A program made the translations under genes and the position numbers. Source: Candidatus Magasanikiibacteriota bacterium (GTDB taxonomy: Bacteria > Patescibacteriota > Patescibacteriia > Magasanikbacterales > UBA922). Taken from it: a DNA stretch of 40,685 nucleotides. Shown here piece by piece: positions 15,524-19,243 of this stretch. Below the pieces are notes generated by a model, which searched no databases, was not told the origin of the DNA, and saw only the letters and a list, made by a program, of their open reading frames with translations. The stretch is from positions 1-40,685 of the forward strand of contig PBBY01000017.1 in the NCBI GenBank assembly GCA_002716765.1, written 5' to 3'. How positions within the stretch are numbered: the first letter of the stretch is position 1; the number at the start of each line of letters is the position of its first letter.

Positions 15524-16099
15524 TTATATTACATGTTGTCCATAAATGAATTTCGAAGACATAATATCATTCCACATTACCGAATACACAATAGCGGAAC
15601 CAGGCTTAATACCGCAAAAAATTGGATCTTTATCATCTAGCACGGCAGCAAGTTCTAAGTAAAACGGATGAGAGAAGCAAAGAGCAACACTTCCTTGCTG
15701 TATACTTCTTGCAATCGAAAAGATTGTGTCAATCAACTCAATCCTACCAGCTTGCATTGCGGGACTTATACTCAACACTTCTTGTACCGTTTTTCCACAG
15801 AATCCTGTAGTATCCTTCTTGTAACAGAGGTATGTTTTATAAAAGTCTTCGAACACTTCTTCATGACAAAGACCACTTTCAATACTTACCGGGATCTGTT
15901 TTTCAAACACACCTCTTGCAATACGTGCTGATTCCTCAGTCTTCGCAATCCCGGAATGGTATATAATACTAACAGACGTGTAGTATTGTGAAATACGATG
16001 AACCATACCCTCCACTTGCTTCTTCCCCTGTTCTGTTAAAGTTCCATCTGGAGAAGCTGCGCCAGCGGGAGCCAGTATAATCTTTGTTGGGACTATCAT
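15524..16099 (-). CDS. Histidine phosphatase-like protein without catalytic RHG motif
   Basis: 191 residues following the plan of the SixA/phosphoglycerate-mutase-like family: a first strand, then DGTLTEQGKKQ (usually L(T/S)xxGxxQA), a SGIAKTEESARI segment matching the SxxxRTxxTA region, and a late FSHPF with the second His (144). The RHG motif that carries the phosphorylated His is replaced by Pro11-Ala12-Gly13. The protein is thus probably not a phosphatase and may bind a phosphorylated ligand or partner. The start is supported by an AAAGGAAA site. The promoter on the minus strand is TTGACA-17-TAAGGT (16141-16169). Fold assignment is from pattern only. Confidence 0.6.
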   Translation of the reverse strand: MIVPTKIILAPAGAASPDGTLTEQGKKQVEGMVHRISQYYTSVSIIYHSGIAKTEESARIARGVFEKQIPVSIESGLCHEEVFEDFYKTYLCYKKDTTGFCGKTVQEVLSISPAMQAGRIELIDTIFSIARSIQQGSVALCFSHPFYLELAAVLDDKDPIFCGIKPGSAIVYSVMWNDIMSSKFIYGQHVI

Positions 16100-16197: not shown

Positions 16198-16223
16198 TAT
16201 ACTTGTATTATTACAATAATACA
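16198..16223 (+). promoter_or_regulatory. -10 box and palindromic operator of the TrpR/YerC-like gene
   Basis: TATACT (16198-16203) is followed at once by a perfect 20-base palindrome, TGTATTATTACAATAATACA (16204-16223), ending 9 bases before the ATG at 16233. It spans the expected transcription start. For a gene coding for a TrpR-like DNA-binding protein this suggests negative autoregulation (inference). Confidence 0.55.
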
Positions 16224-16557: not shown

Positions 16558-16586
16558 TTGACAATTTATTTATTATGTGTTAACAT
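16558..16586 (+). promoter_or_regulatory. Promoter TTGACA-17-TAACAT
   Basis: TTGACA (16558-16563), a 17-base spacer and TAACAT (16581-16586). Transcription would start near 16593, just before the 16-codon frame at 16605. Confidence 0.5.
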
Positions 16587-16604
16587 ACTAACACACTAAA
16601 ACAT

Positions 16605-16655
16605 ATGAGAAATTACTTATCATACAATGTACGCCATTATTATTTTCTTAAGTAA
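16605..16655 (+). CDS. Possible aromatic leader peptide (16 codons)
   Basis: The frame encodes MRNYLSYNVRHYYFLK: four Tyr, one Phe and one His in 16 residues. It starts about 12 bases after the predicted transcription start and its TAA lies within the left arm of a strong inverted repeat (16647-16676). This geometry is that of an attenuation leader. There is no SD, and the frame may be chance, since AT-rich DNA codes Tyr often. Confidence 0.3.
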   Translation: MRNYLSYNVRHYYFLK

Positions 16656-16676
16656 CCAATATTTGGTGTACTTAAG
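16647..16676 (+). repeat. 13-bp inverted repeat upstream of the M20 gene
   Basis: CTTAAGTA-ACCAA (16647-16659) pairs with TTGGT-TACTTAAG (16663-16676) with one bulged G and a 3-base loop. A consensus TATAAT (16678-16683) begins 1 base later, so the repeat covers the -35 region of that promoter. It can be an operator at the DNA level or a hairpin at the RNA level. Confidence 0.65.
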
Positions 16677-16677
16677 A

Positions 16678-16683
16678 TATAAT
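16678..16683 (+). promoter_or_regulatory. Consensus -10 (TATAAT) of the M20 gene
   Basis: TATAAT lies 31 bases before the ATG at 16715. No -35 is recognisable because the inverted repeat occupies that place. A small CGTC-GGAA-GACG hairpin with a T-run follows at 16685-16703. Confidence 0.4.
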
Positions 16684-16714
16684 TCGTCGGAAGACGTTTT
16701 TTTATTTTATCTGT

Positions 16715-17866
16715 ATGAAAAACACAATACAACTCACAAAAAAACTTATTTCCCTAACAAGTTACAAAGATGGTAAACAGAATGAAAAGCCGGTAAGTGA
16801 TTTTTTGTATTCCTTTATGTGCAAACAGTTTCCGCATCTTGCTGTTTCTGCACAAAAAGTAGCTAAAAATAGATATAATATTTTTGCAACAGATAGATTT
16901 CCAACCAAACTCCTTGTAGTAAACCAAATAGACACGGTACCACCATCACTCCTTTGGAATACCGACCCTTTTACACCAAAAGAAACAGAAAAAAATATTA
17001 TAGGACTTGGTGCCACTGATTCAAAAGGGAACATTGCTGCATTTCTTTCTGCATTGTTACAATGTGGTAACACAAAAGGACTTGCACTATTATGGTATGT
17101 TGACGAAGAATCTCAATTTGCCGGAATGAAGTATTTTGTTCAGTCAAAAGAGGCAAAAAAAATAAACCCAAAACATGTTCTATCGATAGATGGGAATGGT
17201 TGTGCACTCGGCACATCTTGTAGAGGTGTTATGGAATGCACCATTCGTATTTCTGATACACCTAAACACAGCGCGCAAGCAAAAAAAAATATACTCATAG
17301 ATTTTTTTGATGTCATTTTGAAAACACAAAAATATATACAAACATTTTCCTCAAAAACCCTCGGCAAACCCACAATCAATATCGCAACAGTACAATCAGG
17401 ATGTGTAAAGAAAAAGAGTGTATCAAACTATACCTTTCAAAACCAAGGAAATATTACACCAGAAATGATTGAGGCACTTGTAGAAATACGAACCATTCCA
17501 GAAATAACCGGAAAAGAAATCGTGCAAAAAATAAAAGAATATGCAAAAGATCGTGACATTAAAAATATAGATATTGATATACATTTTGATGAAACAGGTT
17601 TTGAAACAAAAAGAAACACACTTGAACCAATACAAAAAAGCATTACACAATCAATCGGGGGTACGATATATCTTGATCCAAAAAACTTTGGGTATCTAGA
17701 CATTGCAATGCTCAAACAAATTTACCCAAATACAGCACTCTGCTCATTTGGTGTTGGTGTTCCAGGTCAGGCTCACGCCCCAAATGAATATATATCTAAA
17801 ACAAATTTACAAAAAGGAGAGGCGGTATACAAACAGATACTGAAAAACCTTACCACCACACCTTAA
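16715..17866 (+). CDS. M20-family metallopeptidase/deacylase homologue with altered metal ligand
   Basis: 383 residues of the ArgE/DapE/ACY1 type, which cleave N-acyl amino acids or small peptides with two zinc ions. Conserved sites: Asp73 (QIDTVPP), Asp102 in GLGATDSKGNIAA, Glu131-Glu132 (YVDEES), Asp159 (SIDGNG) and His354 (AHAPNE). The first metal ligand, the His of GHxD, is Gln71. With the rest intact, the enzyme may use one metal or act on an unusual substrate. The lid domain is about residues 170-290. The gene has its own regulated-looking upstream region (16558-16703). The substrate is unknown. Confidence 0.75.
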   Translation: MKNTIQLTKKLISLTSYKDGKQNEKPVSDFLYSFMCKQFPHLAVSAQKVAKNRYNIFATDRFPTKLLVVNQIDTVPPSLLWNTDPFTPKETEKNIIGLGATDSKGNIAAFLSALLQCGNTKGLALLWYVDEESQFAGMKYFVQSKEAKKINPKHVLSIDGNGCALGTSCRGVMECTIRISDTPKHSAQAKKNILIDFFDVILKTQKYIQTFSSKTLGKPTINIATVQSGCVKKKSVSNYTFQNQGNITPEMIEALVEIRTIPEITGKEIVQKIKEYAKDRDIKNIDIDIHFDETGFETKRNTLEPIQKSITQSIGGTIYLDPKNFGYLDIAMLKQIYPNTALCSFGVGVPGQAHAPNEYISKTNLQKGEAVYKQILKNLTTTP

Positions 17867-17950: not shown

Positions 17951-18739
17951 ATGATTCACAAAATTGTTACATGTGACTCACTTACATCAGAATTACTCGA
18001 TGACCTTACGACTCAATATGCCACGTCATTTTGGTCCGGAAGTTGGCAAGAGTTGCTTTGTGTTCGTGAGTCCGGGAACATAATGCAGCAGTTTGGCACT
18101 TTTAGTGCAGAAACCAAAGATCTTATGACGCATAATAATCTTTGGCACCTTGTAACCGAAAACATATCGTGGTCACATGTTCTTTGGGAACAAGCAGGTC
18201 AAGGTACCGTGTTTACAGAAGCAGGCGAACAAATCGAGCAGTTTTGGACATATAACTCCGCCAAGGAAACACTACTGTCCTTTCTTCTTCCAACATATAA
18301 CGGTGGCTATGGCGGCGAGTATATCGTTCTATTTTCAGAAGAAGGTACTATAATTGGTTTTACCGCGTATTTTGCTTGCGAGAAAAGCTGTGCACTTACA
18401 CTAATACAAAAACGATATCCAGAAAAACAACATGGTACGCCCGAAGTGCAACATATTGTTTCAGAATTTTCTTGGGATACTATTGGCTGCTTTCTTGACT
18501 TTGCTATTGCAGAAGAGTTTCAAGGAAAAGGTTGTGGTTCTACCTTGTTCGACCTCCGTTTAAACCGTCTTTTTGCACTTGGTGTAAATGGTGTTGTTGG
18601 AAGAACAATTAGCACATCAAAAGCACAGTACTTTGGCAATTATATAAAGCGTGGCATGGTTCCACTTTGCACCCAAGAAAGCGATGCGAAAAAAACTATC
18701 TTTTTTATTACTCCAGAAATGGTCAAACAAAGACCTTGA
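17951..18739 (+). CDS. GNAT-family acetyltransferase
   Basis: 262 residues. The C-terminal part (about 125-255) has the GNAT core: LDFAIAEEFQGKGCGSTLFD is the acetyl-CoA pyrophosphate-binding motif A (Q-x-x-G-x-G), followed by a helix and the ISTSKAQYFGNYIKRGM motif B-like segment. The N-terminal 120 residues are unassigned and may be a second, degenerate GNAT-like half or a substrate domain. GGAG lies 6 bases before the ATG. The gene ends in TGA. The substrate is not predictable. Confidence 0.75.
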   Translation: MIHKIVTCDSLTSELLDDLTTQYATSFWSGSWQELLCVRESGNIMQQFGTFSAETKDLMTHNNLWHLVTENISWSHVLWEQAGQGTVFTEAGEQIEQFWTYNSAKETLLSFLLPTYNGGYGGEYIVLFSEEGTIIGFTAYFACEKSCALTLIQKRYPEKQHGTPEVQHIVSEFSWDTIGCFLDFAIAEEFQGKGCGSTLFDLRLNRLFALGVNGVVGRTISTSKAQYFGNYIKRGMVPLCTQESDAKKTIFFITPEMVKQRP

Positions 18740-18811: not shown

Positions 18812-19243
18812 ATGCCAAGAGGAAAAAATCTCACTCCGGAGGCAAGAATTCTTGCAACAATGGCTGCAAAAGCAAATACTTCTTACACAGAGTTTAAAAA
18901 TCTCACAAACCTAGCGATGCCAGGTAGAGATATTCCAGAAAACTCCCAAAAAATGTTAAAACGCAGGTATATTCAAAACTGCAACATTCAACAAGCAGCG
19001 TGGAAAGGACTCTATCAGCATGTTCTAAGTATAAAACCGAGCGCTGATGTTCCAAAGAAAGCATTTGCACTTGTAGCCTTTTATGCTCAAATACCCACTT
19101 CTGAGTGGCAGCAATTCTATCCAGGAGAAGGGCTAACTGCACCACAACATGTTCCGTTGGTTATTCAGCAAATCCACCAAAACGATTGGCAGATACTCTG
19201 GAACCATGCCATCAAGCCAAAATCTAATTTTGGTAAAGGGTAA
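18812..19243 (+). CDS. Hypothetical protein, 143 residues
   Basis: No family recognised. It is soluble, basic at the N-terminus (MPRGKNLTPEARILATMAAKA) and mostly helical, with several Trp in the C-terminal half (WKGLYQHV, SEWQQFYPG, NDWQILWNH). The start is set by a purine-rich AAGGAAAGG site. It has its own promoter inside the end of the GNAT gene and a strong terminator, so it is a separate unit. Confidence 0.6.
   Translation: MPRGKNLTPEARILATMAAKANTSYTEFKNLTNLAMPGRDIPENSQKMLKRRYIQNCNIQQAAWKGLYQHVLSIKPSADVPKKAFALVAFYAQIPTSEWQQFYPGEGLTAPQHVPLVIQQIHQNDWQILWNHAIKPKSNFGKG

Follow-up and report, generated by a model that had tools for sequence, protein, structure and literature searches.

The region between a hisR-type gene and an M20-family amidohydrolase gene of a Candidatus Magasanikiibacteriota bacterium probably places an M20-GNAT operon under dual control, by the repressor HisR and by a leader peptide. 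The case is strong for the repressor half and moderate for the attenuator half. We analyzed a stretch of 40,685 nucleotides (the window; contig PBBY01000017.1) from an 886-kb (0.89 Mb) assembly of 22 contigs that is 89.7% complete, and compared it with relatives whose genomes are ~1 Mb. The features on which the argument turns are listed in Table 1.

Table 1. Predicted features of the hisR-M20 region, in window coordinates
Feature	Position	Strand	Basis
HisR-type operator TGTATTATTACAATAATACA, upstream of hisR; putative autoregulation site	16204-16223		Matrix score 21.9, second site of the window
hisR, YerC/YecD-family repressor of the TrpR superfamily, 92 aa	16233-16511	+	TIGR02531, PF01371, 3G1C, tree
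Sigma-70-type promoter TTGACA-17-TAACAT (TAACAT at 16581-16586)	16558-16586	+	Promoter scan; layout in relatives
HisR-type operator TGTGTTAACATACTAACACA, overlapping the -10 element	16576-16595		Matrix score 23.9, top site of the window
Leader peptide MRNYLSYNVRHYYFLK plus stop, 16 codons	16605-16655	+	R2 covariance-model match; layout in relatives
Leader hairpin holding the stop codon	16646-16677	+	Inverted repeat, fold, covariation in relatives
Terminator-like hairpin CGTC-GGAA-GACG plus T7, 4-bp GC stem	16685-16703	+	Sequence, fold, same position as the relatives' terminator
M20-family amidohydrolase (ArgE/DapE-like), target gene	16715-17866	+	PF01546, 5.7e-21
GNAT-like gene, second of the M20 unit	17951-18739	+	Weak GNAT match, under cut-off

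The identity of the neighboring regulator rests on several concordant comparisons. The 92-residue protein exceeds the cut-off of the YerC/YecD model TIGR02531 (71.0 bits; cut-off 42.2) and also matches PF01371, whereas it scores under the cut-off of the TrpR model TIGR01321 (30.6 bits; cut-off 67.25). Its best relative of solved structure is 3G1C, the HisR of Eubacterium eligens (PMC9413887). A tree of 29 proteins groups it with hisR-type proteins, outside a clade with full support whose eight members are paralogues; six of these lie directly upstream of trpE-, trpB- or trpS-like genes as judged from sequence starts only. Together, these comparisons support its identification as HisR, a histidine repressor of the TrpR superfamily; the low TIGR01321 score and the position outside the TrpR clade rule out TrpR itself. 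The earlier note, made from the letters of the window, had proposed a TrpR/YerC-like neighbor as candidate regulator: a TrpR-family neighbor does bear on the M20 promoter, but it belongs to the HisR branch. The second clade, found at L026, L028-L031 and L033 just 5′ of genes read as trpE, trpB or trpS, is probably the true TrpR of the class. On the other side of hisR, the minus-strand frame at 15524-16099 has weak similarity to SixA phosphohistidine phosphatase (E 5e-4, under cut-off), and an open reading frame of similar length occupies the same place in G001, the sole relative of the same genus.

We then asked where this repressor would act. An operator matrix was built from hand-checked sites in the leader promoters of 17 relatives, with the window excluded. 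The third-best site of the window reaches 11.5, and the maximum over 100 random sequences was 19.3, against the two top scores in Table 1. The underlying pattern is a 20-bp palindrome of 7-6-7 layout, TGTRTTA-N6-TAAYACA, which lies, exactly or as a near match, over the -10 element of the 17 leader promoters; in several relatives a second site overlaps the first, shifted by 8 bp. Such overlapping sites recall tandem TrpR binding. The strict pattern has just two copies in the source assembly, those of Table 1, and one in G001, before hisR. Thirteen of the 19 family genomes that have a HisR-branch gene carry it next to that gene, and two of the 27 that have none carry it anywhere. Published HisR sites share the 20-bp palindromic structure (PMC9413887). 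On this sequence evidence, HisR very probably represses the M20 promoter. The product of the adjacent gene would bind over the -10 element and before its own gene, repressing when histidine is plentiful, with histidine as the predicted co-repressor by analogy with published HisR work; the transcript start is likewise predicted.

The promoter itself had been recognized before, and our scan recovers it with 10 of 12 consensus bases and an extended TG, at a position relative to the leader that is alike in window and relatives. A second promoter, proposed at a TATAAT near 16678-16683, gains no supporting -35 element from the scan and falls in the hairpin and linker, and we regard it as chance. The operator, too, had been sought elsewhere, at 16647-16676; the palindrome over the first -10 element, absent from the earlier note, proved to be the key DNA site.

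Downstream of the operator, the leaders of the 17 relatives have a recurrent layout: operator over the -10 element, leader of 14-17 codons, hairpin, terminator and target gene. Within the family, leaders with consecutive His codons lie downstream of hisR at 11 loci (L010-L015, L017, L019-L021 and L023); a class-wide covariance-model search added six more clear leaders, from other families or other loci (L046, L048, L049, L050, L051 and L053), with a hisR-type gene upstream of five of the six in the stretch examined and none listed for L053. The L022 leader, MAYSFLHHLLLTCRT, was seen by eye and stands outside the count of 17. In the family leaders the consecutive His codons come five codons before the stop, the hairpin includes the stop codon, and the terminator, mostly AATCGC..GCGATTTTTT in the relatives, follows a few nucleotides on; the terminator-like hairpin of the window sits at the matching position. 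Covariation over the 17 sequences supports an RNA structure for this two-helix element: 92.8% of cells are paired, and double-change cells number 23 against 7.0 in shuffles (none of 500 as high) while slid controls collapse, in an alignment whose fitting to the covariance model favors pairing somewhat. The 17 leaders have both the frame and a counterpart of the hairpin with compensatory changes, and the suggestion of the earlier note that repressor and leader could act together fits the relatives, where operator and leader share one promoter. Rfam scans of the relatives' leaders gave no match, RF00514 included, at E up to 0.5-1, and those of the window gave none for its leader, including RF00514 at the gathering threshold. 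A DNA search with the intergenic region matched the closest relatives solely around hisR.

The window carries a likely diverged copy of this element. A covariance model, R2, trained with the window left out, matches 16605-16704 from the leader ATG onward (32.4 bits, E 3.8e-5), 14 bits above the next match in the window (18.2). Because 30-bit matches, probably due to chance, occur in class genomes and 32 bits alone is not significant genome-wide, it is the placement behind hisR and the operator that makes the match convincing. The 16-codon frame, its stop codon (16653-16655) inside an inverted repeat, and the small hairpin with a T-run before the M20 start are all present as first described. 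The repeat, TCTTAAGTA...TACTTAAGA, pairs 16646-16654 with 16669-16677 in 9 perfect bp, with a 5-bp extension containing one bulge. The 100-nt leader folds at -20.0 kcal/mol, compared with a shuffle mean of -12.3 (sd 2.5; z about -3.1), and one of 300 shuffles folded as low. The terminator-like stem, by contrast, is weaker than the 6-8 bp stems of the relatives.

Where the window departs from its relatives is in the control codons. Its leader keeps their length, start, a single His, the Leu two codons before the stop that is common among them, and the stop within the hairpin. Five codons back from the stop, however, the relatives' His-His corresponds to Arg10-His11, followed by Tyr12-Tyr13-Phe14: consecutive His codons, HH or HHH in 17 of 17 relatives' leaders, are missing here (R-H-Y-Y-F), and the first His of the pair, kept in every other leader examined, is lost. 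His11 and Arg10 stand 11 and 14 nt from the hairpin stem, and the relatives' His codons about 9-14 nt. This change suggests one of two histories: retuning of the leader towards Tyr/His supply, or its decay. The window copy is a single sequence, as G001 has neither leader nor M20 gene.

If the element works as we propose, two control layers were inherited from a histidine regulatory cassette, and the second, made of leader, hairpin and terminator, would couple leader translation to read-through. In the relatives, a ribosome stalled on the consecutive His codons would have its front edge at the hairpin foot, with the hairpin still folded, and one that had reached the stop codon would open it; stalling and control of termination are both predicted. 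Hairpin and terminator do not overlap in this leader type, and no mutually exclusive antiterminator was found in its consensus (hairpin 5′ arm masked; terminator forbidden in the alignment).

The target gene is itself linked to histidine through distant genomes. The M20 protein scores under the specific ArgE and DapE cut-offs. None of the other 45 family genomes has its gene, the protein has no close match elsewhere among them, and a scan of contigs gave only a distant match. Relatives at 42-47% identity are found in G345, G417 and G255, each followed by a GNAT-like gene. A hisR-type gene lies directly upstream of M20 in the distant genomes G345 and G417 (the G255 contig ends there), with a reading frame that ends in HH or HHH. 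In folds of the RNA after hisR in these two genomes, an antiterminator forms with a ribosome on the first His codon, and a terminator forms on free RNA or with the ribosome placed beyond that point. This predicted switch is the best evidence that M20 belongs among histidine-controlled genes. At L034, L038 and L025, C-terminal codons of hisR (HH or HHH) appear to serve as an attenuator leader whose switch overlaps the region of the hisR stop; the genes that follow are M20-GNAT in two genomes and, in L025, one resembling alanine racemase. In G001 the orthologue of the window's gene at 18812 comes directly after hisR, which implies that the M20-GNAT unit was gained in the window lineage or lost in G001.

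Several alternatives were weighed against dual control. A real, though minority, possibility is that HisR at the -10 operator is the sole control and that the leader elements (peptide, hairpin and terminator) survive from a His attenuator no longer at work since the His-His pair was lost; the lost His, the weak terminator stem and the intact operator are what such a history would leave, yet decay would be expected to destroy frame or hairpin quickly, and the leader still has its start, its length, the place of its stop and a strong hairpin. We judge it somewhat likelier than even that the leader of the window is functional.

Whether it would then respond to tyrosine is doubtful. According to this reading, the control codons were replaced and a shortage of Tyr-tRNA lifts termination before M20. 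Four Tyr in 15 codons is unusual by composition (chance about 0.5-1.6%, computed after the fact), two of them are adjacent and immediately follow the position that corresponds to His, and Tyr is scarce in the remaining leaders examined. However, 8 and 5 nt separate Tyr12 and Tyr13 from the hairpin, less than for the relatives' His codons, so that stalling at these Tyr codons would make the ribosome open the foot of the hairpin; relatives of M20 are predicted to be under His rather than Tyr control; and no aromatic gene is linked at the locus. We therefore consider Tyr sensing by this leader unlikely, and regard with at least as much reserve the more specific proposal of a His attenuator re-coded in place to Tyr, or to Tyr and His jointly, and still under HisR. 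If that proposal were true, a scavenging M20-GNAT operon would answer to two amino-acid signals combined at a single promoter. Of the aromatic attenuator put forward originally, the leader-peptide element bearing on the M20 promoter stands, while aromatic sensing is set against His-His in the relatives and one His with two Tyr here.

Short open reading frames and AT-rich hairpins are common, and 30-bit model matches arise randomly somewhere in many genomes, but an ordinary intergenic region holding a random small frame and the terminator of hisR is very improbable, given that the model match begins at the leader ATG, right behind hisR and the -10 operator and with its margin in the window, and given the operator ranking and the two-site operator count in the genome. 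Least probable of all, and rejected on the matrix scan, is that the repeat at 16646-16677 serves a TrpR-family protein as a DNA operator: it is a good palindrome adjoining a TrpR-family gene, but it is not among the HisR-motif matches, and the counterpart hairpins of the relatives vary in sequence with pairing kept. By these comparisons it is an RNA hairpin.

The proposed dual control by HisR and leader peptide has parallels in three described systems. With the HisR (YerC) regulon of Firmicutes the cassette shares a TrpR-superfamily repressor, a 20-bp palindromic operator, predicted hisR autoregulation and his-gene targets (PMC9413887); the operator, however, differs from the Firmicutes cacTTTA-N6-TAAAgtg and is closer to the proteobacterial HisR motif, the window's target is an M20-GNAT operon, and the leader element coexists with HisR, whereas attenuators are described in lineages without HisR (PMC9413887). 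Like the E. coli his leader (RF00514), the relatives have a short consecutive-His leader peptide, a hairpin, a terminator and his genes downstream, but this leader type has neither an Rfam match nor an identified antiterminator, and the window lacks the consecutive His codons. The E. coli trp operon would be alike in its working, with a TrpR-family repressor and a leader peptide on one promoter; here the branch is that of histidine, the target gene is unrelated and the repressor gene lies directly upstream. Searches of openly accessible literature found no account of leader-peptide attenuation in the group.

The wider targets point to histidine as well. The 46 family genomes yielded four hisG genes, every one of them behind hisR and a leader (L011, L012, L015 and L023), and hisS lies downstream of the L051 leader. 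Other leaders precede an alanine racemase, a weakly DapF-like protein, a nucleoside phosphorylase, an AspA/AstE-like protein, an S66 peptidase and a radical SAM protein, the last read from sequence. Two loci, L011 and L051, have a canonical tRNA-His gene placed after the terminator of the His leader, ahead of hisG or hisS. At L010, L012, L013, L014, L022 and L053 this place, between leader terminator and next gene and within the 5′ leader, is taken by a tRNA-like element of ~75 nt with an apparent GTG (His) anticodon loop and non-canonical T and D loops; ARAGORN accepts the L053 copy only and Rfam none. A separate canonical tRNA-His is present elsewhere in G042, G043, G046 and G050, and the element is possibly a cis-acting mimic of tRNA-His.

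How ultrasmall, host-dependent bacteria regulate their genes is little known. A cassette of hisR, -10 operator, leader peptide, hairpin and terminator recurs in many genera of a single class, where its targets include hisG, hisS, peptidases and a racemase. This suggests that histidine supply is sensed by both repressor and ribosome in cells with small genomes. In the source genome, where hisG was not found (assembly about 90% complete), the benefit may be salvage of peptides or acyl-amino acids. The cassette also offers a lead for annotating M20, GNAT, S66 and AspA-like genes of obscure role as amino-acid supply functions.
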